Of a stretch of 11,966 nucleotides of DNA, positions 891 to 11,948 are shown in pieces. Made by a program: the position numbers and the translations under genes. The stretch is from Bacillota bacterium (GTDB taxonomy: Bacteria; Bacillota; Bacilli; Bacillales_B; DSM-18226). Numbering within the stretch: the stretch's first letter is position 1; each line of letters begins with the position of its first letter. Under the pieces are notes generated by a model. The model was not told the origin of the DNA. It worked only from the letters and a program-made list of their open reading frames with translations, and did not search any database. Location of the stretch: the NCBI GenBank assembly GCA_030705665.1, contig JAUZQA010000066.1:1-11966 (forward strand), given 5' to 3'.

Positions 891-2225
891 ATGTCTAATA
901 AAAGGAAATTAAAGTTAGGCGCCATAATACATGGGGTTGGTGGGAACATAGCAGGCTGGAGACATCCTGAAATTCAGGCCGACGCAAGTGTAAGCCTTAA
1001 TTTTTACAAGGAGCAGGCACAGAAGGCTGAAAAAGGAAAGTTTGATTTAGCCTTTATTGCAGATGGGTTGCACATCAACGAGAAATCCATGCCACATTTT
1101 TTAAATCGGTTTGAACCGATTACAATTTTATCGGCTCTTGCTGCAGTGACATCAAGAATTGGTCTTGTTGGTACCTTATCGACTTCTTATAGTGAACCAT
1201 TTAATGTTGCACGCCAATTTGCTTCTCTCGATCAGATCAGCCATGGTCGGGCAGGCTGGAATGTTGTCACCTCGCCATTGGAGAAAACCGCTTTAAACTT
1301 TAGCAAGACAATTACGGAACATCCTGATCATGCTAAACGATACAAAATCGCCGCTGAATACCTCGAAGTGGCAAAAGGATTATGGGATTCCTGGGAAGAT
1401 GATGCATTTGTCCGTGATAAACAGTCCGGTGTGTTTTTCGATCCTGATAAATTGCATCCATTGAATCATAAAGGTGATTTTTTCTCAGTAGCAGGTCCAC
1501 TAAACATAGCAAGATCCAAACAAGGGAGACCAATTATTTTTCAAGCCGGATCATCTGAAGCCGGAAAAAATCTGGCAGCAAAAGAGGCAGATGCAATATT
1601 TACAGGGCATCCAACCTTGGAGGCAGCCAGAAATTTTTATCAGGATGTAAAGGAGAGGGCAAAAAGCTTTGGCCGTAATCCAGATGAACTCGTGATTCTA
1701 CCAGGAATCGCACCAATAATTGGGGCAACAGAGGAAGAAGCAGAAAGGAAATACCAAGAAATTGCCAATCTAGTATCTATCGATAAGGCACTTGATTACT
1801 TAGGCCGATATTTTGAACATCATGATTTCTCACAATATCCTCTCGATGAACCATTCCCGGAACTTGGTGAGTTAGGAAAAAATAGTTTTCAAAGCCATAC
1901 CGATCGTATTAAACGGGAAGCAAAAGAGCAAAACCTAACACTTCGTCAGGTGGCATTAAGAGAAACAACCCCAAGGACTACATTTATCGGTACACCTGAA
2001 AAAGTGGCTGACCTGATTCAAGAATGGTTTGAAGGAAGGGGGGCTGATGGATTCATTATCGGTTCAGCGGTTCCAAATGGATTAAACGATTTTGTAGACT
2101 TTGTAGTTCCAATTCTCCAGGAACGTGGACTGTATCGAACAGAATACGAAGCTGATACATTAAGGGGCAACTTGGGGCTGCCTTTTCCAAAAAACCGTTA
2201 TTCAAAACAACCAATAAAACATTGA
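891..2225 (+). CDS. ytnJ: FMN-dependent C-S bond monooxygenase (NtaA/SnaA/DszA family, YtnJ/CmoJ/YxeK type)
   Basis: Two-component flavin monooxygenase of the bacterial luciferase-like superfamily. It uses FMNH2 supplied by a separate reductase, and none is encoded here. Family members in B. subtilis (YtnJ, renamed CmoJ, and YxeK) cleave the C-S bond of N-acetylated S-alkyl or S-succino cysteine. At 444 residues it has the usual family length. Visible blocks are HGVGG and GWRHP (residues 14-26), FIADGL (55-60), RFEPITIL (73-80), [14 protein letters not shown] (91-104), [12 protein letters not shown] (117-128), [13 protein letters not shown] (213-225) and a late [12 protein letters not shown] motif. 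These closely match my memory of YtnJ, more than YxeK. The start is set by GAGAGGG at 878-884, six bases before the ATG. It is the first gene of the cluster. The family is firm; the exact substrate is inferred from the acetyltransferase and deacylase downstream. Confidence 0.88.
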
Positions 2226-2278: not shown

Positions 2279-2299
2279 GCCGACTAGATAACTGGAGGC
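2279..2299 (+). promoter_or_regulatory. Leader hairpin, copy A of a two-copy motif (putative antiterminator)
   Basis: GCC (2279-2281) pairs with GGC (2297-2299) and CTAG (2284-2287) pairs with CTGG (2292-2295) through one G-U. The stem is interrupted by a GA/A internal loop and closed by the tetraloop ATAA. The 3' arm shares AGGC with the terminator that follows, so only one of the two can form. Copy B at 11881-11903 has the same fold, with CTAG/CTAG in place of CTAG/CTGG, so pairing is kept where the sequence changes. No convincing promoter was seen directly upstream. Confidence 0.5.
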
Positions 2300-2341
2300 T
2301 CGCTATTTAAGACATTTATATCTTGAAAAGCGGCCTTTTTT
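2296..2341 (+). terminator. Intrinsic terminator/attenuator in front of the aminotransferase gene
   Basis: AGGC-(T)-CGCT (2296-2304) pairs with AGCG-GCCT (2329-2336), with further TTT/AAA and AAGA/TCTT pairing inside. Six T residues follow at 2336-2341. It lies between two genes pointing the same way, only 26 bases before the first possible aminotransferase start. It is therefore better read as a conditional attenuator than as an operon end, especially as the preceding hairpin can capture its 5' arm. Confidence 0.65.
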
Positions 2342-2396
2342 GTTCTCCTCACAGATATGAAACATAATGGTTCAGTATAAAGAAAAGAGTGATAAA

Positions 2397-3608
2397 ATGC
2401 CAGAAAATTCTGGATACAACTATAATCAATTTTTACCTGCAACTCCTTCCATAGGTGGCACAACTGGTGCTGTAGCAGATCATGTTCACTTTTCATTTGG
2501 GTTCCCAAATTCAGCACTCTTTCCATTAAAAGAACTGGCCGAGGCAGCAAAAAAAGCAACGTTATTACATGGGCATCTCGCATTACATTACACCGGCGGC
2601 CCAGGAACAATGAAAATTCGTCAATGGATTGCTAATCGAGTTCACAGGCGAAAGATTGAGAGTAAGCCGGAAGATGTACTAATTACAGCGGGTGCAGGTC
2701 AAGCCATAGATGTAGCCGCAAGAGTATTGATTAATCCAGGGGATGAAGTCTGGGTAGAAGCGCCATCTTTTTTTAGTGCATTGCGTTCGTTTGAAATGGC
2801 AGGTGCTGCCGTACGGGCATTTCCAATCGATGAAAATGGATTGCAAGTGGAATTGGTGCAAGATGCACTTGAGTCTGCAGTGTCCAATGGAGCCAAATTG
2901 CCAAAATTTATCTATGTTATGCCTAATTTTCATAATCCAGGCGGAGTGAATCTTTCTGAAGAGCGCCGAAAACGATTAGCGTCTTTGGCATTAAAATATA
3001 ACTTCTATATTTTAGAAGATGATGCTTATGCGGATATAAATTTTCAAAATCGAATATTACCTTCTATTTATTCTTACGCCCCTGAGCGGGTTGTTTATAT
3101 TGGAACATATTCTAAAATCATTGGGCCGGGAATTCGTCTGGGTTGGACGATTGCGAACCCGGAAATACTGCGTTATTTTCGCTTGTTTCTGCTAGGGAGT
3201 CAAACGAATCCATTCATGCAGGAAATTATAGCAGGTTTATTGGAAAATTTAGAGTTTGACCAATATCTTAATGAAATTAATCGCACTTATTCACTTCAAC
3301 TTGATGTAATGATCCATGAACTCCAAAGACATTTTGGCAATGAAATAATTTTTAACAAGCCAAGCGGAGGATTCTTCTTACTCTTGAAATTTAGAGATAA
3401 AGTAGATGTTTCAGCACTCGTTGCCCTGGCAGAAAAAAAAGGCGTAAGTGTTGTGAGCGGCACAGAGTTTTATCTGAATAAATCGGATGTAAATGAAATT
3501 AGATTATGTTTTACTTATTCATCCAAAGCTCAAATTCAAAATGGCATAGAGCGTTTAGCTGAAGCTTATAAAGAAATGAAACATTCTGTAATAAATGTTG
3601 AAGTTTAA
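2397..3608 (+). CDS. PLP-dependent aminotransferase, class I/II (LysN / MocR-domain-like)
   Basis: Fold-type I pyridoxal-phosphate enzyme, stand-alone and without a GntR DNA-binding domain. Numbered from the ATG at 2397 (403 residues): TAGAGQAID near 97-105 (phosphate-binding loop), Asn180 in PNFHNPGG, Asp208/209 and Tyr211 in EDDAYAD (pyridine N and ring contacts), the Schiff-base lysine Lys240 in GTYSKIIGPGIRLGW, and the substrate-carboxylate arginine Arg369 in IRLCFTY. All key residues are present. The start is uncertain: an ATG at 2367 would add ten residues but lacks a ribosome site, while 2397 has a weak AAAAGAGTG before it. The gene is preceded by the attenuator and followed by the glutaredoxin gene. 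B. subtilis ytm/yxe operons lack such a gene as I recall, so its role is open: transamination of an S-modified cysteine, or a side reaction on the released fragment. Confidence 0.85.
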   Translation: MPENSGYNYNQFLPATPSIGGTTGAVADHVHFSFGFPNSALFPLKELAEAAKKATLLHGHLALHYTGGPGTMKIRQWIANRVHRRKIESKPEDVLITAGAGQAIDVAARVLINPGDEVWVEAPSFFSALRSFEMAGAAVRAFPIDENGLQVELVQDALESAVSNGAKLPKFIYVMPNFHNPGGVNLSEERRKRLASLALKYNFYILEDDAYADINFQNRILPSIYSYAPERVVYIGTYSKIIGPGIRLGWTIANPEILRYFRLFLLGSQTNPFMQEIIAGLLENLEFDQYLNEINRTYSLQLDVMIHELQRHFGNEIIFNKPSGGFFLLLKFRDKVDVSALVALAEKKGVSVVSGTEFYLNKSDVNEIRLCFTYSSKAQIQNGIERLAEAYKEMKHSVINVEV

Positions 3609-3631
3609 ATTTGTTAAAGATTTTCTTAATC

Positions 3632-3638
3632 AAGGAGG
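3632..3638 (+). promoter_or_regulatory. Strong ribosome site fixing the glutaredoxin start
   Basis: AAGGAGG lies eight bases before the ATG at 3647. It rules out the upstream in-frame ATG at 3611, which would add an odd MLKIFLIKEELL leader and overlies this site. Confidence 0.8.
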
Positions 3639-3646
3639 AATTGTTA

Positions 3647-3919
3647 ATGGGAAAAGAATTATCTGTTGTTGTATGGGCGAAACAAGGTTGCCACTATTGT
3701 GGAGAGGTCAAAAACTATTTGGAGCAAAAAGGTATTCATTACAAAACGGTTGATGTGACGAACCACGATGAACGCCGCGATATTTTGGAAATCAAATATG
3801 GTGTCCGCCATGTACCGGTTGTTGAAATTGGTGTTGGTGATGTGTATAAAGGTGTATCGGAAGTCGGAATTGAACATCTGGAAAAGGCATTAGAGGAAAT
3901 AGAGAAGATTAAGAGGTAG
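3647..3919 (+). CDS. ytnI: Small glutaredoxin/thioredoxin-fold protein (YtnI type)
   Basis: Cytoplasmic thiol-disulfide protein of 90 residues, the usual length for NrdH/YtnI-like glutaredoxins. It opens with a beta strand (ELSVVVWAKQ) followed by the redox motif Cys-His-Tyr-Cys (GCHYCGEV, about residues 14-21). The helix NYLEQKGIHYKTVDVTNHDE follows, then the cis-proline motif HVPVVEI that binds the partner peptide or glutathione/bacillithiol. In B. subtilis a similar protein, YtnI, sits beside the YtnJ monooxygenase. A likely job here (inference) is reducing a mixed disulfide, sulfoxide-derived or sulfenate intermediate formed during S-substituted cysteine breakdown. It lies 38 bases after the aminotransferase gene, so the two are probably co-transcribed. 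The fold is certain; the partner is not. Confidence 0.85.
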   Translation: MGKELSVVVWAKQGCHYCGEVKNYLEQKGIHYKTVDVTNHDERRDILEIKYGVRHVPVVEIGVGDVYKGVSEVGIEHLEKALEEIEKIKR

Positions 3920-3972
3920 GGATGATTTCGATTCCAACTAAATTGTTATTAAAAAACGACTGAACAAATAGT

Positions 3973-4017
3973 GCCCGCAAGATTACCTTAACATGCGGGC
4001 TCCACCGTTAGGAAGGC
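3973..4017 (+). promoter_or_regulatory. Stem-loop with possible pseudoknot in the leader of the ABC importer genes
   Basis: GCCCGCA (3973-3979) pairs perfectly with TGCGGGC (3994-4000). The 14-base loop contains CCTTAAC (3986-3992), which can pair with GTTAGG (4007-4012) downstream with one bulge, as in an H-type pseudoknot. No T tract follows on the + strand, so it is not an ordinary terminator. In front of a transporter gene it could be a cis-regulatory RNA, an RNA processing site or a stability hairpin. Confidence 0.4.
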
Positions 4018-4056
4018 AAAGAAGTGCATAACTTTCAAAAAAAGAAAATTGAGAAT

Positions 4057-4073
4057 GTAATTGGAGTAATTAC
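4057..4073. repeat. Short inverted repeat just before the binding-protein gene
   Basis: GTAATT (4057-4062) and AATTAC (4068-4073) form a perfect dyad around five bases, 20 bases before the ATG. It could be a regulator site or chance. It is too AT-rich and short to make a stable RNA hairpin. Confidence 0.2.
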
Positions 4074-4093
4074 TGTATTGGGGGAAAATTATC

Positions 4094-4936
4094 ATGTCTA
4101 AAAAGTATTTTGCAAGTCTGCTCATCATTTTTGCTGTACTTATTTTCGCTGGCTGCAGTGCAGCCTCCGACAAAGCAAGCTCCGTTTCAACTAAATCCAG
4201 CAAATCCAACAATGCTCAAGAGATCATCGTTGGAACAAGTCCATCTTTTCCTAAAGTTACGTTTCTAGATCAGAGTGGAAAGCTAACCGGATTTGATATT
4301 GAATTGGTTAAAGAAATCGATAAACGGCTCCCTAATTATAAATTTAAGTTTCAAACAATGGATTTTCCTAATTTATTACTTAGTTTAAATACAAATAAGA
4401 TTGATTTTGTTGCGAATGAAATGGAAAAAAACAAAGATCGATCGGAAAAATATTTATTTAATAAAGTTCCATATGCGTTCTGGAAAACTTACATTATTGT
4501 AGCAAAAACGAATAATCAGCCAATCCATTCACTTGATGATCTGAAAGGGAAAAATGTGTTAACAACGGCCACAACAGCTGAAGCCAATTTACTGGAGAAT
4601 TATAATAAAAGCCATAATGATGCCATTCATATTGTGTATACGAACGGGGCGTCGAATGATACTGTAAGTCAGGTCACATCTGGACGTGTGGATGCTACAC
4701 TTGGTGCTGATTTTTCACTTTCACTGATTGACCCTCAAGGTAAGCTTAAAATTGTGGGCCAGCCAATTGCAAGTAATGGCGTCTATTTCGTTTTTCGCAA
4801 AAATGATAAAAAAGAACAGGATGTTGCGAATCAAATTGACCACGCTCTAACTCAAATTAAGCAGGATGGAACTCTTTCAAAACTTAGTAAGGAATGGTTG
4901 GGACAGGATTATACAAAATCATCTGATGCAAATTAA
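4094..4936 (+). CDS. Amino-acid ABC importer substrate-binding lipoprotein (family 3, TcyJ/TcyK type)
   Basis: Extracellular lipid-anchored receptor that delivers a polar amino acid, here probably cystine or an S-substituted cysteine, to the permease pair encoded next. It has a lipoprotein signal peptide of about 20 residues (MSKKYF, hydrophobic core, then FAGC with the lipidated Cys at 21), followed by a Ser/Lys/Ala-rich linker and an SBP_bac_3 domain. Visible domain features are VGTSPSFPKVTF, LTGFDIELVKEI, MEKNKDRSEKYLFNKVPY (the Arg expected to bind the ligand carboxylate) and SGRVDATLGAD (Asp expected near the amino group). Its 280 residues are typical. The ribosome site GGGGGAAAATT is not the consensus but is well placed. 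B. subtilis has two such proteins, TcyJ and TcyK, for this transporter; only one is present here. Substrate assignment rests on context. Confidence 0.9.
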   Translation: MSKKYFASLLIIFAVLIFAGCSAASDKASSVSTKSSKSNNAQEIIVGTSPSFPKVTFLDQSGKLTGFDIELVKEIDKRLPNYKFKFQTMDFPNLLLSLNTNKIDFVANEMEKNKDRSEKYLFNKVPYAFWKTYIIVAKTNNQPIHSLDDLKGKNVLTTATTAEANLLENYNKSHNDAIHIVYTNGASNDTVSQVTSGRVDATLGADFSLSLIDPQGKLKIVGQPIASNGVYFVFRKNDKKEQDVANQIDHALTQIKQDGTLSKLSKEWLGQDYTKSSDAN

Positions 4937-4975
4937 TCGATATATGCAAAATATCCAAAAGGAGGGGTCCGGAAA

Positions 4976-5758
4976 TTGGGGAAAAAGTTTGATATCACAT
5001 ACGTTTTTTTACACCTTCCTAAATTAATGAGCTGTATAAATACTACTCTATTAATTGTTTTTTTCTCTATACTGCTTGGATTAGTTATTGGTCTGCTTGT
5101 CGCTTTACCCAGACTGTATAAAATACCTGTTTTGCAGAGATTCTCTGAAATCTACATTTCGTTTTTTCGTGGGACTCCTATATTAATTCAACTGTTCTTA
5201 ATCTACTATGGATTGCCAGAGATTTTATTGATGGTTCATATGGATATCTCTAAAGCGCCTGTTTTGGATTTTGTCATATTAACCTATGCACTTAATAGCG
5301 GTGCATTTCTATCGGAAGCGATCCGTTCAGCAGTTCTTTCAGTTGATAGGGGGCAGGTAGAGGCGGCATATTCCATCGGGATGACGGGGTATCAGGCTTT
5401 TACAAGGGTTGTTATGCCTCAAGCTATAGCTATTGCTATACCTGTGTTTGCCAATTTGGTTATTGCCAATCTAAAGGACACCTCATTGGCATTTACCCTT
5501 GGTGTGATGGACTTAACAGGGAAAGCTCAAACACTTGCCCAATTAACACAGCATTTTATGGAAACCTATATTGCACTTGCTTTCATTTATCTTGCTATTA
5601 GTCTTTTATTGGAGAAATTATTTGCAATGGGAGAAAAACGTCTATTAAGATATGAAACTCAGCTTGAAAGAGGCAAGAGGATTTTGACAGACAAAAAGAG
5701 GTTAACAGGTATATTTTCATCAGGTATTAACCTCCAAAAAGGAGGCTCACGTTTATGA
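4976..5758 (+). CDS. tcyL: Amino-acid ABC importer permease 1 (HisM family, TcyL type)
   Basis: Integral membrane subunit, 260 residues, with about five hydrophobic segments. It begins with TTG at 4976, supported by AAAAGGAGGGG (4957-4966) nine bases upstream. Family marks are ISFFRGTPILIQLFLIYYGLPE (about residues 60-81) and the EAA loop VEAAYSIGMTGYQAFTRVVMPQA, which docks onto the ATPase. The C-terminus is longer than usual: a basic tail of some 25-30 residues (KRILTDKKRLTGIF and onward) whose codons also carry the ribosome site for the next gene. Its stop overlaps the next start by four bases (ATGA), giving translational coupling. It forms a heterodimer with the following permease. Confidence 0.9.
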   Translation: MGKKFDITYVFLHLPKLMSCINTTLLIVFFSILLGLVIGLLVALPRLYKIPVLQRFSEIYISFFRGTPILIQLFLIYYGLPEILLMVHMDISKAPVLDFVILTYALNSGAFLSEAIRSAVLSVDRGQVEAAYSIGMTGYQAFTRVVMPQAIAIAIPVFANLVIANLKDTSLAFTLGVMDLTGKAQTLAQLTQHFMETYIALAFIYLAISLLLEKLFAMGEKRLLRYETQLERGKRILTDKKRLTGIFSSGINLQKGGSRL

Positions 5759-6465
5759 AAATGGATCCCGGTTTTATTTTTACAGCTTTTATTAGTCTCT
5801 TAACGGCTTTGCCTGTAACCTTGGAAATCACGGTAGTCTCTGTTCTGTCTGGCTTTATCATTGGTACTATTGTTGCCATGATCCGTTATTATGAAATTCC
5901 TTTTTTTCGCACAATAGCACGATTGTATGTAGTCATTATTCGTGGTACGCCGATGATTACTCATTTATTAATAATCTATTTTGGCTTTTCTGAATTGATA
6001 GATGGATTTGCTCCACACTTTGGTTGGAACTTTACTTCATCTGTCATTCCTTTAATTGACTTTGCTTATCTATCTTTTTCAATTACTGCAGGTGCCTATC
6101 TTTCTGAAATTATCCGTTCTGGGTTACTTGCGGTGAATAAAGGACAATTAGAAGCTGCTTTTTCAATCGGAATGACTCCATTTCAAGCATTAAGGAGGAT
6201 TGTTTTCCCTCAAGCCTTGGCTGCAGCATTGCCAAACTTTTCGAACTTTTTGATTGGAATGCTTCATGGAACTACATTAGTTTTTGCTGTGTCAGTAGTG
6301 GACATTAATGCGAAAGCGCAAATAGTCGCATCAACAAACTGGAAATTTTTCGAATCTTACATTGCTGCTGCGATCATCTATTGGAGTTTAACTATTTTAA
6401 TTGAAAGATTAACGGGATTACTTGAAAATCGAATCAATCGTTTTAACAGAGGGGGTGTCGCATGA
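5755..6465 (+). CDS. tcyM: Amino-acid ABC importer permease 2 (HisM family, TcyM type)
   Basis: Second membrane subunit of the importer, 236 residues, about five hydrophobic spans. Shared landmarks with its partner are [21 protein letters not shown] and the EAA loop [23 protein letters not shown], showing that the pair arose by duplication. The start ATG lies inside the previous gene's stop (ATGA at 5755-5758) behind AAAAAGGAGG, and its own stop overlaps the ATPase start in the same way. The transporter is therefore tightly coupled in translation. Assignment to cystine or S-modified cysteine uptake is by comparison with B. subtilis TcyLM and by the surrounding enzymes. Confidence 0.9.
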
Positions 6466-7232
6466 TTCAGTTAGCAAATATCTCCAAATCATTTGGGGAG
6501 CATGAGGTTCTTAAAAATATAGATTTAACCGTAAATAAAGGAGAAGTAGTTGTAATCTTAGGGCCAAGCGGTTCGGGAAAGACGACTTTGCTTCGCTGCT
6601 TAAATTATTTAGAAAAGCCAAATACCGGGAGCGTAAAGATTGGGGATTTTACAATGGACTATGTACATCCAAGTAAAACCGAAATTTATCAACTCCGCAG
6701 GAAAACGGCAATGGTTTTTCAACATTACAATTTATTTAAACATAAGACAGTCCTGGAAAATGTAATGGAAGGGCTTGTGATTGTTCAGAAAATGCCAAAA
6801 CCGGATGCACGGGTAAAAAGTATCGAGGTTTTGAACAAAGTTGGCTTAGGAGAAAAGCTGGATTCTTTTCCGAGCCAATTGTCAGGAGGACAGCAGCAAA
6901 GGGTAGGAATCGCAAGGGCACTCGCGTTAAATCCTGAAGCCATTCTATTTGATGAACCAACATCTGCACTCGATCCTGAATTAGTCGGGGACGTGCTTGA
7001 GGTGATTAAATCGATTGCACAAGAAGGGATTACCATGGTGGTTGTTACACACGAAATGGGTTTCGCAAGAGAGGTAGCGGATCGGGTATTGTTTATGGAT
7101 GGAGGAGTGATCGTAGAAGAAGGAACACCTTTTGAAATTTTTAATGATGCGAAAGAAGAACGTACACGCCGATTCTTGCAACGTATATCTGGTATAACTA
7201 CTAAGACTGATTTGCAAGAACAGATGAATTGA
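6462..7232 (+). CDS. tcyN: Amino-acid ABC importer ATPase (TcyN type)
   Basis: Cytoplasmic ATP-binding subunit, 256 residues, powering the permease pair. All nucleotide-binding elements are intact: Walker [10 protein letters not shown] (34-42), Q-loop Gln87 in MVFQHYNLF, signature LSGGQ (140-144), Walker B ILFDEP (161-166), D-loop SALD, and switch His197 in [10 protein letters not shown]. The [14 protein letters not shown] and [14 protein letters not shown] segments are typical of the polar amino-acid (GlnQ/TcyN) subfamily rather than the sulfate subfamily encoded later in this window. It starts in a four-base ATGA overlap behind AGAGGGGG. The acetyltransferase gene follows 32 bases after the stop. 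Confidence 0.92.
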
Positions 7233-7248
7233 GGAACAGATCAACGAC

Positions 7249-7256
7249 AAAGGTGG
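7249..7256 (+). promoter_or_regulatory. Ribosome site deciding a GTG start for the acetyltransferase
   Basis: AAAGGTGG lies eight bases before the GTG at 7265. The longer alternative, TTG at 7229 overlapping the tcyN stop, has no ribosome site and would add twelve residues ([12 protein letters not shown]) that do not look like the start of a GNAT fold. Confidence 0.6.
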
Positions 7257-7264
7257 GAATTATA

Positions 7265-7774
7265 GTGATAAAGCAAATCATTATTGATGAAATTAAGGAA
7301 GAAGAGAAAGAAGAAGTTCGCAGAATACTAGTAGAGAGTTATCAGCAATATGCCCATTCTTACACAAATCATGACTTATGGATAGAGTATTTATCGAATA
7401 TTAAAGCATCTGTTGATAATCCGGATGTAGACAAAATATTGGTCGCCAAATCTAATCAGCAAATTCTTGGAACTTTACAGTTATTTGAGTCTTCCGAAAA
7501 AGCCTATCAAAGACCTGAATTGAATATTTTTTCACCCATTATTCGCCTTCTGGCCGTCCACCCTACGGCAAGAGGGCGTGGTGTAGCACAGGAATTGTTA
7601 AAAGCAGGAGCGGAATATGCGAAGTCTAAAGGAGCAACCAAATTGTATTTGCATTCAGGTGATCGGATGTCAAAAGCCATTCGTTTATATGAATGGCTTG
7701 GTTATAAGCGGGATCACTCGAAAGAGTTCATGAACAATGACATATTAGTCAAGTGCTTTAGACTAGATTTATAG
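7265..7774 (+). CDS. GNAT-family N-acetyltransferase (YtmI/SnaA-like role)
   Basis: Acetyl-CoA-dependent N-acetyltransferase of 169 residues from the GTG start. The acetyl-CoA pyrophosphate loop is clear: LLAVHPTARGRGVAQELL, with the R/Q-x-x-G-x-G/A signature at about residues 103-108. Motif B follows as LYLHSGDRMSKAIRLYEWLGYKRD, the usual late helix-strand of the fold. In B. subtilis, acetyltransferases in the equivalent operons (YtmI/SnaA and YxeL/SnaB) N-acetylate S-alkyl or S-(2-succino)cysteine before oxidative C-S cleavage. The position between the importer ATPase and the deacylase fits the same protecting-group role. I cannot claim one-to-one orthology with either. The stop is 13 bases before the next ATG. 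Confidence 0.83.
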   Translation: MIKQIIIDEIKEEEKEEVRRILVESYQQYAHSYTNHDLWIEYLSNIKASVDNPDVDKILVAKSNQQILGTLQLFESSEKAYQRPELNIFSPIIRLLAVHPTARGRGVAQELLKAGAEYAKSKGATKLYLHSGDRMSKAIRLYEWLGYKRDHSKEFMNNDILVKCFRLDL

Positions 7775-7787
7775 AAAGGAGATCCCA

Positions 7788-8924
7788 ATGAATCAAGCAG
7801 AATTAGAGACTCACTTGATATCTATACGACGCCACCTGCACCGACATCCGGAATTGTCTAATCAAGAATTTGAAACGACCCAATTTATTAAAACGTGGCT
7901 GCAGGAAATGAATATTCCAATTAGGGAAACAGAATTAGCTACAGGTGTTTTTGCTGACATAGAAGGAAGGAAACCTGGCCCAATTGTTGCATTGCGTGCA
8001 GATATTGATGCCCTCCCGATTGAGGAAAAAACGGGACTTTCTTTTGCTTCAAAATATAAAGGGATCATGCATGCTTGTGGCCATGATTTTCACACAGCGG
8101 CACTTATAGGTGCCGCGTATCTTTTAAAATCAAAACAATCAGAACTAAGAGGGACAGTACGCCTTTTATTTCAGCCTGCAGAAGAATTAGGGGGCGGGGC
8201 TAGGCTTGTGATGAAGGATGGCCAGCTTGATGGAGTCCAGGCGATAATCGGCCTTCACAATAAACCTGACTTGCCGGTGGGGACCATTGGGTTAAAAGCT
8301 GGGCCCTTAATGGCGGCAGTGGATCGTTTTCATGTTACCCTATATGGTAAAGGAAGCCATGCAGGGATACCTCAAAATGGATGTGATCCAATAGCAGCTG
8401 CAGGGCAACTTATTACGGCTCTTCAGACGGTCGTCAGCAGAAATATTTCCCCGATAAAAAGCGCTGTATTGAGCGTGACGAAAATTCAAGGCGGCAGCAC
8501 ATGGAACGTTATCCCAGATCAAGTCGTTCTGGAGGGGACGATTCGATCTTTTGACACCACTATTCGGAAAGATATAAAAGAGAGATTTTATACGATTGTA
8601 AATGCAGTAGCAGCAGCATTTTCGCAGGAAGCGGAAATCAAATGGTTCCCAGGTCCACCCCCGGTTGTTAACCATGAGGCGGTGACAGAAATTACACGTA
8701 CAGCTGCTCTTCAGCAGTCATTAGTGGTTATAAATCCCGAATCTTCCATGGCGGGTGAAGATTTCGCTTATTATCAGGAACAGATCCCTGGAAACTTTGC
8801 TTTTTTTGGTACAAGTGGAAGCGAGGAGTGGCATCACCCGGCATTTACCCTTGATGAATCTGCCATCATTAAAGCAGCTTTTTACTTATACGAAAGTGCT
8901 AAAAGGATTTTAGAATGTCAATAA
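7788..8924 (+). CDS. M20-family metal-dependent amidohydrolase / N-acyl-cysteine deacylase (YtnL/YxeP type)
   Basis: Cytoplasmic amidohydrolase of 378 residues, normal for the M20D peptidase/HipO/YxeP group. It removes the N-acyl group from an amino acid. Visible elements are IRRHLHRHPELS (13-24), ALRADIDALPIEE (68-80), HACGHD with metal ligands Cys97 and His99, LLFQPAEE with acidic residues Glu132/133, GLHN with His157, the small dimerisation domain from about 175 to 290 (GKGSHAGIPQNGCDP onward), and SMAGEDFAYY plus WHHPAF (His349/350) closing the metal site. All expected ligands are present. The ribosome site is AAAGGAGAT. In the B. subtilis pathways the homologue (YtnL/SndA or YxeP/SndB) frees cysteine from N-acetylcysteine as the last step, and it is the last gene of the cluster here. 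Alternative substrates such as other N-acyl amino acids cannot be excluded. Confidence 0.87.
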   Translation: MNQAELETHLISIRRHLHRHPELSNQEFETTQFIKTWLQEMNIPIRETELATGVFADIEGRKPGPIVALRADIDALPIEEKTGLSFASKYKGIMHACGHDFHTAALIGAAYLLKSKQSELRGTVRLLFQPAEELGGGARLVMKDGQLDGVQAIIGLHNKPDLPVGTIGLKAGPLMAAVDRFHVTLYGKGSHAGIPQNGCDPIAAAGQLITALQTVVSRNISPIKSAVLSVTKIQGGSTWNVIPDQVVLEGTIRSFDTTIRKDIKERFYTIVNAVAAAFSQEAEIKWFPGPPPVVNHEAVTEITRTAALQQSLVVINPESSMAGEDFAYYQEQIPGNFAFFGTSGSEEWHHPAFTLDESAIIKAAFYLYESAKRILECQ

Positions 8925-8926
8925 CA

Positions 8927-8964
8927 AATAAAGAGCAATACTCTTTTGAGCATTGCTCTTTATT
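8927..8964. terminator. Strong hairpin between convergent operons (bidirectional terminator)
   Basis: A 17-bp stem (8927-8943 with 8948-8964) with a single A-C mismatch and a TTTT loop begins two bases after the deacylase stop and ends eight bases before the cysA stop. T-rich sequence follows in the - direction (TTTATTTGTTATT) and lies in the descending arm in the + direction. It therefore most likely ends both convergent transcripts. Confidence 0.8.
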
Positions 8965-8972
8965 GAAAAAAG

Positions 8973-10061
8973 TTAAATATAAATAGGCATTGGATCAATT
9001 TTATTTCTATTTTCCAACATCCGGGTTTCTGAAGGTGTAAACAATGAAAGTTGATGGATTAATAGATTAACCTTGTCACCAGGTTGGAAAACCTGTTGGT
9101 TAATTGCTTGATAGGCATATAAAGTAGCATTGTTCGAAATTTCAATTTCAAGAAACCAGGAATCCCCGCGAAAGTGAACATGTTTGACTGTTCCTTCCTG
9201 CCCAGCACTTGCAAGATAGGTAGTATTATTGGGGCGAACCTCTATCCATTCAGGGCGAATCAGTACTTGAACATCCGAATTTGAAAGGTTAGCATCCTGA
9301 TGATCCATTAGTTCAGGAAAACCAGTAAGAGAAATGGGTACATCTATTTTGTTTGATTCGCCGATAAAGGAGGCTACAAATGCTGAAGCTGGCTTGTTGT
9401 AGATCTCCCATGGTGTACCCTGCTGTTCAATCTCACCCTTTTGAACAATAATAATCTGATCCGCAACTTCAATCGCTTCATCCTGATCATGGGTAACAAA
9501 AATAGTGGTGATCCCGAACTCACTAATAAGATTACGAAGCCACAACCGCAGTTCCTTACGAACTTTTGCATCTATAGCTGCAAAAGGTTCATCCAGCAAC
9601 AATAGTTGAGGTTCGGGTGCAAGCGCTCGGGCAAAGGCAACCCGCTGCCGTTGCCCTCCTGAAAGCTGGTGAGGGAATTTGTTCTCTGTACCTTCTAATC
9701 CCATCAATTTTAAAAGGTAGAAAACTCGTTCCTTAATTGCCATACGATTCTGTTTTTTGACCTTTAAGCCATATGCTATATTATCAAAGACTGTCATATG
9801 CTTAAACAAGGCGTAGTTCTGAAAAACAAACCCAATTCCGCGTTCTTGTACGGATAACGAATTGGCCAGTGTTCCATTGAAATATATTTCTCCGGAATCA
9901 GGCTGCTCAAGCCCTGCAATCATTCGCAGGATAGAGGTCTTACCCCCGCCGCTTGGTCCGAGAAGACCGACCAGATGTCCTTTTTCAATTGTAAAACTGG
10001 TTTTATTGATAGCGTGGAACGCACCGAAATGTTTTTCCAAATCTCTAACTTCAATGTGCAT
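8973..10061 (-). CDS. cysA: Sulfate/thiosulfate ABC importer ATPase CysA
   Basis: Cytoplasmic ATPase of 362 residues energising sulfate or thiosulfate uptake. It has an N-terminal ABC domain: Walker A GPSGGGKTS (35-43), Gln81 of the Q-loop in VFQNYALFKHM, LSGGQ (133-137), Walker B LLLLDEP (153-159) and His191 in FVTHDQDEA. A C-terminal regulatory part of about 110 residues follows, with the TOBE-like segment VLIRPEWIEV and HVHFRGDSWFLEIEI. FQNYALF with FVTHDQDEA and the C-terminal domain are typical of CysA. It is the last gene of the - strand operon, and its ATG overlaps the end of cysW by 11 bases behind GAAGGGAAG, so translation is probably coupled. B. subtilis 168 instead takes up sulfate through a permease of another family. 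Confidence 0.92.
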   Translation of the reverse strand: MHIEVRDLEKHFGAFHAINKTSFTIEKGHLVGLLGPSGGGKTSILRMIAGLEQPDSGEIYFNGTLANSLSVQERGIGFVFQNYALFKHMTVFDNIAYGLKVKKQNRMAIKERVFYLLKLMGLEGTENKFPHQLSGGQRQRVAFARALAPEPQLLLLDEPFAAIDAKVRKELRLWLRNLISEFGITTIFVTHDQDEAIEVADQIIIVQKGEIEQQGTPWEIYNKPASAFVASFIGESNKIDVPISLTGFPELMDHQDANLSNSDVQVLIRPEWIEVRPNNTTYLASAGQEGTVKHVHFRGDSWFLEIEISNNATLYAYQAINQQVFQPGDKVNLLIHQLSLFTPSETRMLENRNKIDPMPIYI

Positions 10062-10860
10062 GATATTTTTCTTCCCTTCTATTTTTCATCCATTCCAGAA
10101 ACAGCAGGACCATAACAGAAAAGAGTCCAAGCAAGAGCGCCACACTGTTAGCGGCAACGATATTGTTATCCACCGAGTCTTGATAGACTAAAGTTGTTGC
10201 GGTTTGAGTCTGATTGATAATATTACCGGAAACAACCAATACGGCACCAAATTCTCCAACAGATCTTGCTATGGTTAGGACAAGACCGTAATATACGGCC
10301 CACCGAATCGAAGGCCAGGTAACCTGAAAAAAGGTACGTACTGGACTGGCGCCTAAGGTGGCTGAAGCTTCTTCGGAACTGATGCCAAGCTCTGATAGGA
10401 TTGGAACAATTTCACGAATCATTAGCGGGAAGGTGACAAAAACCGTAGCCATAACCATACCAGGAAGTGCATAGACGATTTTTACACCTGCATTTTCAAA
10501 AAACATCCCCAATAGCGTATTTGGGCCAAACAGAAGGATGATCATTAACCCGCCAATGACAGGGGAAACTGAAAAGGGCAAATCGACAATAATATTAATG
10601 AAGGTCCGAACCCATTTTGGCAACCAAGTGCCGCGGACCATTTCTAATGAAAGCAGTATGCCAATTAACGTGTTCAGCAAAACTACTATTATGACAATAA
10701 TTAAACTTACCGATAAAGCATGAATGGTTTCCGGGCGCTTTAAAGCATCGAAAAACAGTCCAGCACCATTTTGGAAGGCACTCACTACAATACTGGAAAA
10801 TGGCAGGATAAGAATGAGGAGAACTAGTAAAACAGTTATGGAAATAAAGAGCCTTCTCAT
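10051..10860 (-). CDS. cysW: Sulfate ABC importer permease CysW
   Basis: Membrane subunit of 269 residues with about six hydrophobic spans. It pairs with CysT to form the sulfate channel. Recognisable blocks are PFSVSPVIGGLMIILLFGPNTLLG, VTFPLMIREIVPIL, the EAA loop SSEEASATLGASPVRTFFQVTWPSI, and the conserved ARSVGEFGAVLVVSGNI. The last of these, together with QTATTLVYQ, is characteristic of the CysT/CysW family. The start ATG overlaps the cysT stop by four bases (ATGA) behind AAAAAGGAGGGG ten bases upstream. A charged C-terminal tail (MKNRREEKYHAH) runs into the cysA start. Distinguishing CysW from CysT rests on gene order and sequence feel. Confidence 0.9.
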   Translation of the reverse strand: MRRLFISITVLLVLLILILPFSSIVVSAFQNGAGLFFDALKRPETIHALSVSLIIVIIVVLLNTLIGILLSLEMVRGTWLPKWVRTFINIIVDLPFSVSPVIGGLMIILLFGPNTLLGMFFENAGVKIVYALPGMVMATVFVTFPLMIREIVPILSELGISSEEASATLGASPVRTFFQVTWPSIRWAVYYGLVLTIARSVGEFGAVLVVSGNIINQTQTATTLVYQDSVDNNIVAANSVALLLGLFSVMVLLFLEWMKNRREEKYHAH

Positions 10861-11663
10861 ACTTGTGTACCCCTCCTTTTTTGAAAGACATTAACTACTA
10901 GTAAAACAAGTAACGAAAGAGTTATTAATACAATAGAAACAGCCGCAGCCCCTTGGGTGTTATAGTTTTCTATTTCGCCATAAATGTACACCGAGGCTAC
11001 CTGTGTTTTCCCAGGAAGGTTGCCAGATATAAGAGAGAGAGCTCCAAATTCTGATAATGCTCTGGAAAAGGCGAGCATGCTCCCTGCTAGAATGCTAGGA
11101 ACGATGGAAGGAAGCAGTACCTTAAAGAAGGTAAACACTTTCCCTGCACCGAGCGTATAACTAGCTTGTTCTTCAAACGGATCAAATTGCTCGATCATCG
11201 GCTGGACTGTCCGAATAACAAAAGGAAATGTAATAAAAACCATGCCGATTACAATAGCTGCCTGATTGTAAAGCAGATGGATGCCGACGGACCCCAGCCA
11301 TTTCCCGATTGGATTTTGTGGGCCTAAAAGTGACAACAGCATTAAACCAGAAACAGCAGTCGGCAGTGAAAATGGAAGATCCACCATACTGCTTATCATC
11401 CGGTTACCAAAAAAACGGTAACGAACCAAAACGAATGCGATAAAGGTCCCGATCACCGCCTGAATCAAAGTAGTGATTATACTAAGTTTGAACGTTAAAA
11501 GAATTGCTTTCCAGGCTATGACACCGGAAACAGCTTTCCAAAACGGCTCCCAGCCGAGAGAAAAACCTTTTACATATACAGCTGATATCGGTAAAACCAC
11601 AAGGATGAGAAGATAACCAATAAGAATGGAACGCATTGCCACTTGATAACTTTTTATTTTCAT
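10857..11663 (-). CDS. cysT: Sulfate ABC importer permease CysT (CysU)
   Basis: First membrane subunit of the sulfate importer, 268 residues, about six spans. Key segments are DLPFSLPTAVSGLMLLSLLGP, ITFPFVIRTVQPMIEQFDP, the EAA loop EEQASYTLGAGKVFTFFKVLLPSI, and FSRALSEFGALSLISGNLPGKTQVASVYIYGEIE. The start is taken at the ATG at 11661-11663 (MKIKSYQ), with CGGAGTG (11669-11675) in front. A longer frame back to TTG at 11750 is rejected because that TTG is the first half of the -35 box and the transcript would begin inside it. No sulfate-binding protein gene is found next to it within the window, although sbp/cysP usually leads such operons. Confidence 0.9.
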   Translation of the reverse strand: MKIKSYQVAMRSILIGYLLILVVLPISAVYVKGFSLGWEPFWKAVSGVIAWKAILLTFKLSIITTLIQAVIGTFIAFVLVRYRFFGNRMISSMVDLPFSLPTAVSGLMLLSLLGPQNPIGKWLGSVGIHLLYNQAAIVIGMVFITFPFVIRTVQPMIEQFDPFEEQASYTLGAGKVFTFFKVLLPSIVPSILAGSMLAFSRALSEFGALSLISGNLPGKTQVASVYIYGEIENYNTQGAAAVSIVLITLSLLVLLVVNVFQKRRGTQV

Positions 11664-11720
11664 ATCAACACTCCGAAGTTTAAGTATTCTTACCTGATTA
11701 GTATGAATTAAATTATAAAG

Positions 11721-11750
11721 ATAATAACAATATGAAGATACTTCTGTCAA
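11721..11750 (-). promoter_or_regulatory. Sigma-A-type promoter of the cysTWA operon
   Basis: Read on the - strand, a perfect -35 TTGACA (11745-11750) is followed after 18 bases by TATTAT (11721-11726), five of six to consensus. The predicted transcript starts near 11713, giving a leader of about 50 bases to the cysT ATG. Confidence 0.65.
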
Positions 11751-11762
11751 TAAAAAAATAAA

Positions 11763-11777
11763 ATATTCTAATAATAT
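11763..11777. promoter_or_regulatory. 15-bp dyad upstream of the cysT -35 box (possible activator site)
   Basis: ATATT-CTAAT-AATAT is an inverted repeat of the ATA-N9-TAT form, 13 bases upstream of the cysT -35 box. LysR-type regulators, which often control sulfur genes (CysL and YtlI in Bacillus), bind sites of this general shape at this distance. The AT-rich composition makes chance occurrence likely, so the call is tentative. Confidence 0.25.
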
Positions 11778-11827
11778 CTGAGGTTGGTGTAAGCAATTGG
11801 AAGACAGTTTTTTTAACTAAAACAAAC

Positions 11828-11857
11828 TTGACAGATTGGAATTATATGATTTAAAAT
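11828..11857 (+). promoter_or_regulatory. Strong sigma-A-type promoter reading out of the right edge
   Basis: TTGACA (11828-11833), 18-base spacer, TAAAAT (11852-11857). The transcript should begin near 11864, about 17 bases before the copy B hairpin. The spacer holds GGAATT (11838-11843), a short string that also occurs in sites of the Bacillus cysteine repressor CymR as I recall them. That alone is weak evidence. Confidence 0.6.
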
Positions 11858-11880
11858 ACAAATAATTCAAAAATGATCTC

Positions 11881-11903
11881 AGCCGACTAGGCATCTAGAG
11901 GCT
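11881..11903 (+). promoter_or_regulatory. Leader hairpin, copy B of the two-copy motif (putative antiterminator)
   Basis: AGCC (11881-11884) pairs with GGCT (11900-11903), and CTAG (11887-11890) with CTAG (11895-11898), around the loop GCAT, with the same GA/A internal loop as copy A. Outside the four loop bases, 18 of 19 positions of GCCGACTAG...AGGCTC match copy A. The 3' arm is shared with the terminator at 11897-11948. Confidence 0.55.
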
Positions 11904-11948
11904 CTCAATTCAAGGTGACAATCCTGAATTGGGAGCCTCTTTCTTTTT
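11897..11948 (+). terminator. Intrinsic terminator/attenuator overlapping copy B
   Basis: A 16-bp stem (11897-11912 with 11925-11940) is perfect apart from one G-U pair, and a T-rich run follows at 11940-11948. It comes only about 33 bases after the predicted transcript start, so it would end transcription before any gene unless the preceding hairpin forms. Its T tract faces right, so it belongs to a + strand transcript and not to cysT. Confidence 0.75.

Follow-up and report, generated by a model that had tools for sequence, protein, structure and literature searches.

A terminator-coupled hairpin family of bacterial sulfur genes with YezD/OscA as its candidate protein partner

Two copies of a 21-nt hairpin, each overlapping an intrinsic terminator, are found in an 11,966-nt contig of a Bacillota bacterium (GenBank assembly GCA_030705665.1, contig JAUZQA010000066.1), and this whole stretch is referred to below as the window. 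Judging from sequence comparison, both elements are probably members of a widespread attenuator of sulfur genes that is controlled by the small protein YezD/OscA (DUF2292), with protein binding leading to readthrough under sulfur limitation. The comparison supports the element itself, its terminator overlap, the covariation of its stem, its gene neighbourhood, and its co-occurrence and co-segregation with YezD. An earlier note, made from the window's letters, had proposed that the two copies are a shared attenuator connected with sulfur metabolism. Further copies, the terminator overlap, stem covariation and the lack of a match in Rfam all support this proposal, and they support a transcription attenuator family common to the sulfur-assimilation genes of many bacteria.

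The recurrence of one hairpin-plus-terminator element is borne out by pattern search, shuffling, folding and a family model (R2, described below). Searching the whole window for GCCGACTAGNNNNCTRGAGGCTC with up to three mismatches gives two matches, both exact and on the forward strand (2279-2301 and 11882-11904), and 200 dinucleotide shuffles of the window give none. As had been read from the letters, 18 of 19 non-loop bases are identical between the copies, which share the formula GCC-GA-CUAG-N4-CURG-A-GGC, and the A/G change still pairs with U. The start first assigned to copy 1 is correct, while that of copy 2 included one A too many (11881) and is moved to 11882. Folding confirms that in both copies the hairpin 3' arm doubles as the 5' arm of a terminator with a T tail, with five and six nucleotides of the 8-nt arm pairing downstream, and the two regions have fold energies well below those of shuffles (z of -3.5 and -5.4). 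With filters off, model R2 finds the copies at E-values of 5e-8 and 1e-6; the best of the other matches in the window has 0.5. The idea that the pair brackets the whole sulfur locus has to be dropped, because copy 1 is intercistronic, lying 53 nt past the stop codon of a monooxygenase gene (891-2225) and 67 nt ahead of an aminotransferase gene. The window ends before the gene that copy 2 precedes, and sulfate transporter genes are divergent from this copy. A promoter-like site upstream of copy 2 is weak by itself, since the window has 36 such sites against 31.7 expected from shuffles.

Copies in relatives, the search for which had been named as a check, were found in many genomes ahead of sulfur genes. 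They share the consensus NYY-GA-YYRG-N4/5-CYRR-A-RRN, which both window copies fit, together with an overlapping terminator. The first pattern scan used one genome per species and gave at least 119 stretches. Among the matches listed, plus the two window copies, there are 121 matches, 46 of them with a 4-nt loop; a terminator having GAGGC in common with the hairpin accompanies 33 of these 46 but only 12 of the 75 with other loop lengths. Due to the shortness of the pattern, which gives many chance matches, 11 of the 45 terminator-flagged matches were set aside by eye (loci L010, L030, L038, L049, L064, L065, L080, L086, L097, L110 and L113), and L056, a near copy of L012, was excluded from the set called A2. 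Model R1, with 30 positions and 33 rows (two from the window), was trained before YezD was noticed. Model R2 has 127 rows (set A5), of which 28 come from loci fetched by protein profile; A5 was reached from 139 regular-expression rows by removing six as chance and then dropping duplicates.

Each of 12 individually searched genomes has several R1 matches at E ≤ 0.5, with twelve in Ectobacillus funiculus. Among 299 Bacilli genomes, R1 has matches in 43 at E ≤ 0.01 and R2 in 117, which makes the hairpin common in Bacilli; it also occurs in Clostridia, in a Treponema metagenome-assembled genome (MAG) and in an Oryzomonas MAG. Some loci carry tandem hairpins about 120-140 nt apart (L153 at 8121 and 8260, L158 at 8932 and 9051), and in others (L174, L180, L188, L189 and L061) two hairpins stand head to head at a spacing of about 170-200 nt. 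One R1 match (L195, genome G044) looks false and sits in a tRNA-like stretch.

As two copies cannot show covariation, this was examined on relatives, using two sets of R1 matches that were fitted to the model and not chosen for a terminator. The stem covaries in both: six of seven pairs have both-side changes in the first set (A3, 34 rows; 97.5% of cells paired) and seven of seven in the second (A4, 62 distinct rows; 96.5%). Shuffles have 91.6% and 90.4% of cells paired, and slid versions no more than 54%. G-U pairs occur in A3 at three inner pairs (UG nine and six times, GU three times; one unpaired cell), and the outermost pair is the exception to the pairing, with five unpaired cells in 34. 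This spread favours RNA, as a palindrome in DNA is disrupted by such changes. A DNA operator bound by a repressor dimer at the CTAG-N4-CTAG inverted repeat is therefore scarcely credible, even though in DNA, too, the core forms an almost perfect inverted repeat; the asymmetric GA/A bases and the fixed place at the terminator foot would also have no reason in an operator.

A terminator begins in the hairpin 3' arm in 62 of 64 R1 matches (loci from L120 on; seven of the 64 are training rows, and of the two misses one is probably a false match) as against 31 of 631 shifted positions. The corresponding 123 of 127 rows in A5 and the pair count of that set are not independent tests, as its rows were chosen for pairing and terminator. 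Such overlap argues against constitutive terminators in which the hairpin would be a processing or stability element and readthrough would be unregulated, since a plain terminator needs neither sequence conservation nor shared arms. Several copies are intercistronic (copy 1, and those after yezD at 48 of 150 R2 sites among the matches listed) and could set gene ratios, but there are promoter-proximal ones as well, such as copy 2, and we consider this explanation very improbable.

Tabulating the downstream genes was another check that had been set. The survey used 115 open reading frames (ORFs) from the 127-row set, each the longest of at least 90 residues starting within 600 nt, so chosen that some may be wrong, and typed by Pfam at E ≤ 1e-5 with overlapping families. 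The most frequent are PAPS reductase (cysH, 14), luciferase-like monooxygenase (10), NMT1 (substrate-binding, SsuA type, 9) and ATP-binding cassette (ABC) ATPase (8), followed by flavokinase, FMN reductase, permease and radical SAM (five each), SBP_bac_11 and DUF2325 (four each), and Cys/Met enzymes, TauD and NIL (MetN) (three each). Single scans of hairpin loci add nitrogenase-like D/K, NifB-like, MtaA/CmuA-like methyltransferase and CysK genes, and one cluster contains an arylsulfatase with its formylglycine-generating enzyme (FGE) factor. By its predicted functions, this gene set fits a sulfur-scavenging regulon. MarHDK-like nitrogenase homologues and such methyltransferases are tied to sulfur salvage in the passage cited (PMC10418091), and their place here suggests that nitrogenase-like sulfur-salvage reductases are under the same control as the other hairpin genes.

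The recurrent short ORF type in the motif loci is DUF2292 (YezD; PF10055). The NCBIfam model for OscA, ‘sulfur starvation response protein’ (NF033785), matches all five YezD proteins tested, one of them over the cut-off. DUF2292 is present in 120 of the 299 Bacilli genomes, including 41 of the 43 with R1 matches. With R2, 110 genomes have both hairpin and protein, seven the hairpin only, ten the protein only and 172 neither (phi 0.88). SsuD, a main target, is over its cut-off in 48 of the genomes and has a phi of 0.47 with the hairpin, which tracks DUF2292 with or without SsuD in the genome: it is absent from all three SsuD-positive genomes lacking YezD and present in 66 of 75 with YezD and no SsuD. 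For a comparison that took in Bacilli as well, 24 loci out of the 31 in A2 were combined with L098, giving 25 real loci from 24 genomes, and set against 25 chance loci. DUF2292 is found in 22 of 24 genomes of terminator-coupled pattern matches and two of 25 genomes of chance matches, these two being the genomes of L010 and L030, both previously terminator-flagged. Among 118 Clostridia genomes, eight have the hairpin, nine have DUF2292 and six have both, and two have weak DUF2292 matches (23-27 bits) directly before a hairpin. Loci fetched by the protein also revealed variant hairpins directly after yezD that had escaped R1; one of these, GCU-GA-CCGG-N4/5-CCGG-A-GGC, stands before cysH.

Position and sequence subtype link the two further. 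Among the matches listed, which include 138 yezD places, 48 of 150 R2 sites follow a same-strand yezD at a distance of no more than 400 nt, eight precede one by up to 800 nt and 94 do neither. Since yezD thus stands mostly before the terminator, it is placed as a regulator can be and not as a target would; in several loci that look like Brevibacillus (genus guessed), a yezD-DUF2325 pair follows the hairpin. The loci examined hold 113 distinct YezD ORFs, 69 with a hairpin within 200 nt downstream and 44 without. These 69 pairs were found by profile search, and one of them, L315, has no clear terminator. Proteins with H at one strand residue go with a CC outer stem in 43 of 48 pairs and the Q/E type with CU in 21 of 21, while five-nucleotide loops occur in two of the 48 H-type and ten of the 21 Q/E-type pairs. 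YezD has about 50 residues forming one helix and a beta-hairpin (predicted model with a predicted local distance difference test (pLDDT) of 79 and a predicted template modelling score (pTM) of 0.49). In L315, a gammaproteobacterial locus, the DUF2292 gene is followed by a hairpin-like UU-GA-CCAG-UCAA-CUGG-A-AA.

The hairpin has a median fold energy of -6.4 kcal/mol and the terminator one of -24.0 kcal/mol. Termination should therefore be the default, and the hairpin would need a stabilising factor, for which YezD is the best candidate that the comparison offers. With plentiful sulfur, the nascent leader would fold the long terminator and transcription would end. When sulfur is short, YezD/OscA would bind the 21-nt hairpin while it emerges and hold its 3' arm, and with this arm held, the lowest pairs of the terminator stem could not close at the U-tract, resulting in readthrough. 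We hold with moderate confidence the more specific idea that YezD/OscA is a stand-alone RNA-binding antiterminator of about 50 residues that governs a sulfur-starvation regulon by acting on one 21-nt hairpin in several phyla, with H and Q proteins matching CC and CU hairpins so that paralogous switches coexist in one cell.

Several points weigh against control by YezD. Its binding, the direction of the switch (binding giving readthrough) and the sulfur signal are all inferred from genomes. The hairpin occurs without DUF2292 in seven of 117 Bacilli and two of eight Clostridia genomes and, in the comparison of real with chance loci, in Oryzomonas G005 and Metabacillus niabensis G315; DUF2292 occurs without the hairpin in ten of 120 Bacilli and three of nine Clostridia genomes. 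In 94 Gammaproteobacteria, DUF2292 is found in two genomes, one of them Pseudomonas, and neither has the hairpin, which is present in one other genome; R2 finds no hairpin in the Pseudomonas locus L240, which carries oscA. R2 was partly trained beside yezD, and its co-occurrence is thus partly built in, which is not so for R1. All p values, including that of the subtype association (2e-13), are inflated by shared ancestry, and this co-segregation may come from co-inheritance of neighbours. Fold and sequence searches of YezD gave no link to a known RNA-binding protein.

Sensing had been left open between a ligand and an RNA-binding protein, and the genome comparison favours a protein, YezD/OscA, as the switch. 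The ligand version, a very small riboswitch or tRNA-like sensor of a sulfur metabolite (for example O-acetylserine, adenosine phosphosulfate (APS) or a thiol) with YezD as a regulon member, agrees with the terminator overlap, the tandem copies and the metabolic target set, as well as with the Bacilli genomes that have YezD and no hairpin and the eight listed sites where yezD is downstream. We nevertheless regard it as fairly unlikely. The loop consensus of the wider set is W-H-N-A, and 95 of 109 four-nucleotide loops end in A. The few conserved unpaired bases (GA, A and the A-rich loop end) offer little from which to build a metabolite pocket; the hairpin is also linked more tightly to YezD than to SsuD, and yezD is mainly upstream of the terminator. 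Another RNA-binding protein reading the hairpin, with YezD as a co-factor or signal protein acting alongside, would account for how tiny YezD is, for its lack of a recognisable RNA-binding fold and for the hairpin genomes without a DUF2292 match, and DUF2325 adjoins yezD or follows hairpins in several loci. This too is unlikely, because the subtype co-segregation indicates YezD itself and no second constant partner was seen in the loci examined, the rest of the genomes not having been systematically searched.

The kind of mechanism proposed for YezD is known, whereas neither the hairpin family nor the candidate protein is. The ribonucleic antiterminator (RAT) of LicT, SacY and BglG is a small hairpin that a protein binds, with a 3' arm overlapping the 5' arm of the terminator that follows; the design is alike, but sequence and internal loop differ, and RAT hairpins serve sugar genes and not sulfur genes. 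The S-box (S-adenosylmethionine (SAM)-I) and T-box leaders also control Bacillota sulfur genes through terminators and have no match at the two copies. In line with what had been stated on known leader classes, a search of the window with Rfam 15 at E ≤ 5 gave no family on the coding strand at either copy, the sole match overlapping a copy being a weak sok on the opposite strand (17.4 bits, gathering score 59). No S-box, T-box or PyrR match at the Rfam gathering score lies over the element in the window and 19 motif loci; the sole SAM riboswitch match in motif loci is at L039 4355-4466 (+), where the element is at 3423-3452 (-). The PyrR binding element is a short RNA site with a similar, GAGGCU-like ending, and the Rfam PyrR family is matched neither at E 5 in the window nor at gathering score in 10 motif loci. 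In the part of a Bacillus methanolicus study that we cite, ‘(SAM)-(PyrR)’ is listed before the ssu and met operons (PMC4342826), and these PyrR calls may be the sulfur hairpin misnamed.

The suggestion of an undescribed or little-known RNA stands as far as its absence from Rfam 15 is concerned and is tempered by a possible earlier mention. A sentence published in 2010 mentions a premature terminator or attenuator common to a Bacilli sulfonate ABC operon and a gene of unknown function (PMC2965389), which may be the same element; that passage gives no sequence, wider regulon, structure or protein partner. The mention lowers the novelty of the RNA and not that of its partner. In the open-licence literature, outside which most subscription papers lie, we found no description of the hairpin and no molecular role for DUF2292. 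In Pseudomonas corrugata 28, oscA shares a unit with sbp, and inactivating oscA made the strain more sensitive to chromate (Viti et al. 2009, via PMC2996968 and PMC3596284). Deletion of yezD left viability in starvation unaffected (PMC6385201). The cited passages thus share the sulfur context, tying OscA/YezD to sulfur starvation and chromate resistance, and contain no molecular function or RNA target. With a defined RNA target, a list of regulon genes and a code for the subtypes, the role of OscA/YezD would become directly testable. If correct, control by YezD/OscA would add a very small antiterminator family and would provide a sulfur-replete or sulfur-starved annotation for many uncharacterised operons, including nitrogenase-like and methyltransferase clusters.

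Features of the window, with the basis of each assignment
Feature	Coordinates	Strand	Basis or remark
Copy 1 hairpin, GCC-GA-CUAG-AUAA-CUGG-A-GGC	2279-2299	+	3 bp, GA/A internal loop, 4 bp, 4-nt loop
Copy 1 intrinsic terminator	2294-2341	+	5' arm GGAGGC (2294-2299) is the hairpin 3' arm; T-rich tail 2335-2341; fold
Copy 2 hairpin, GCC-GA-CUAG-GCAU-CUAG-A-GGC	11882-11902	+	Pattern and model R2
Copy 2 intrinsic terminator	11897-11948	+	AGAGGC (11897-11902) common with hairpin; tail 11941-11948; fold
Promoter-like site TTGACA-18-TAAAAT, upstream of copy 2	11828-11857	+	Consensus match only, 11/12
NtaA/DmoA family FMN-dependent monooxygenase, upstream of copy 1	891-2225	+	TIGR03860 over cut-off
Pyridoxal phosphate (PLP) aminotransferase, first gene downstream of copy 1	2367-3608	+	PF00155
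Glutaredoxin-like protein	3656-3919	+	Below cut-offs
Cystine-type ABC transporter (binding protein, two permeases, ATPase)	4094-7232	+	Closest models cystine, below cut-offs
GNAT acetyltransferase and amidohydrolase	7265-8924	+	Profile scan
Sulfate ABC transporter genes (CysA, CysW-like ORF, CysT)	8973-11663	-	Divergent from copy 2

Within the cystine-type transporter, 4094-4936, 4976-5758 and 6462-7232 were identified by profile scan and 5755-6465 was assigned by position. Likewise, 8973-10061 and 10857-11663 of the sulfate transporter come from profile scans, and the CysW-like ORF at 10051-10860 was assigned by position. A screen of the window with a loose residue pattern gave no DUF2292-like ORF. 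The convergent amidohydrolase and CysA genes are separated by a 17-pair stem at 8927-8964 that resembles a terminator serving both.

Other observations were made in the surveyed loci. Genes of the nitrogenase-like D/K and NifB-like types cluster with hairpins in L158, L159, L166 and L156-L157. The DUF2325 gene adjoins yezD or stands downstream of a hairpin in L009 (5302-5598), L212-L214, L217, L221, L223 and L226. In L236, L237, L239 and L245, yezD has no hairpin and is closely followed by a gene that resembles, by eye, a sulfite reductase flavoprotein. A protein type of 124-137 residues with no Pfam match adjoins hairpins in two genomes (L153:4836-5249 and L165:6452-6826). A HEARO RNA (RF02033) lies at L150:15398-15627, near a hairpin site and beside an ORF named by eye as RRXRR-like.

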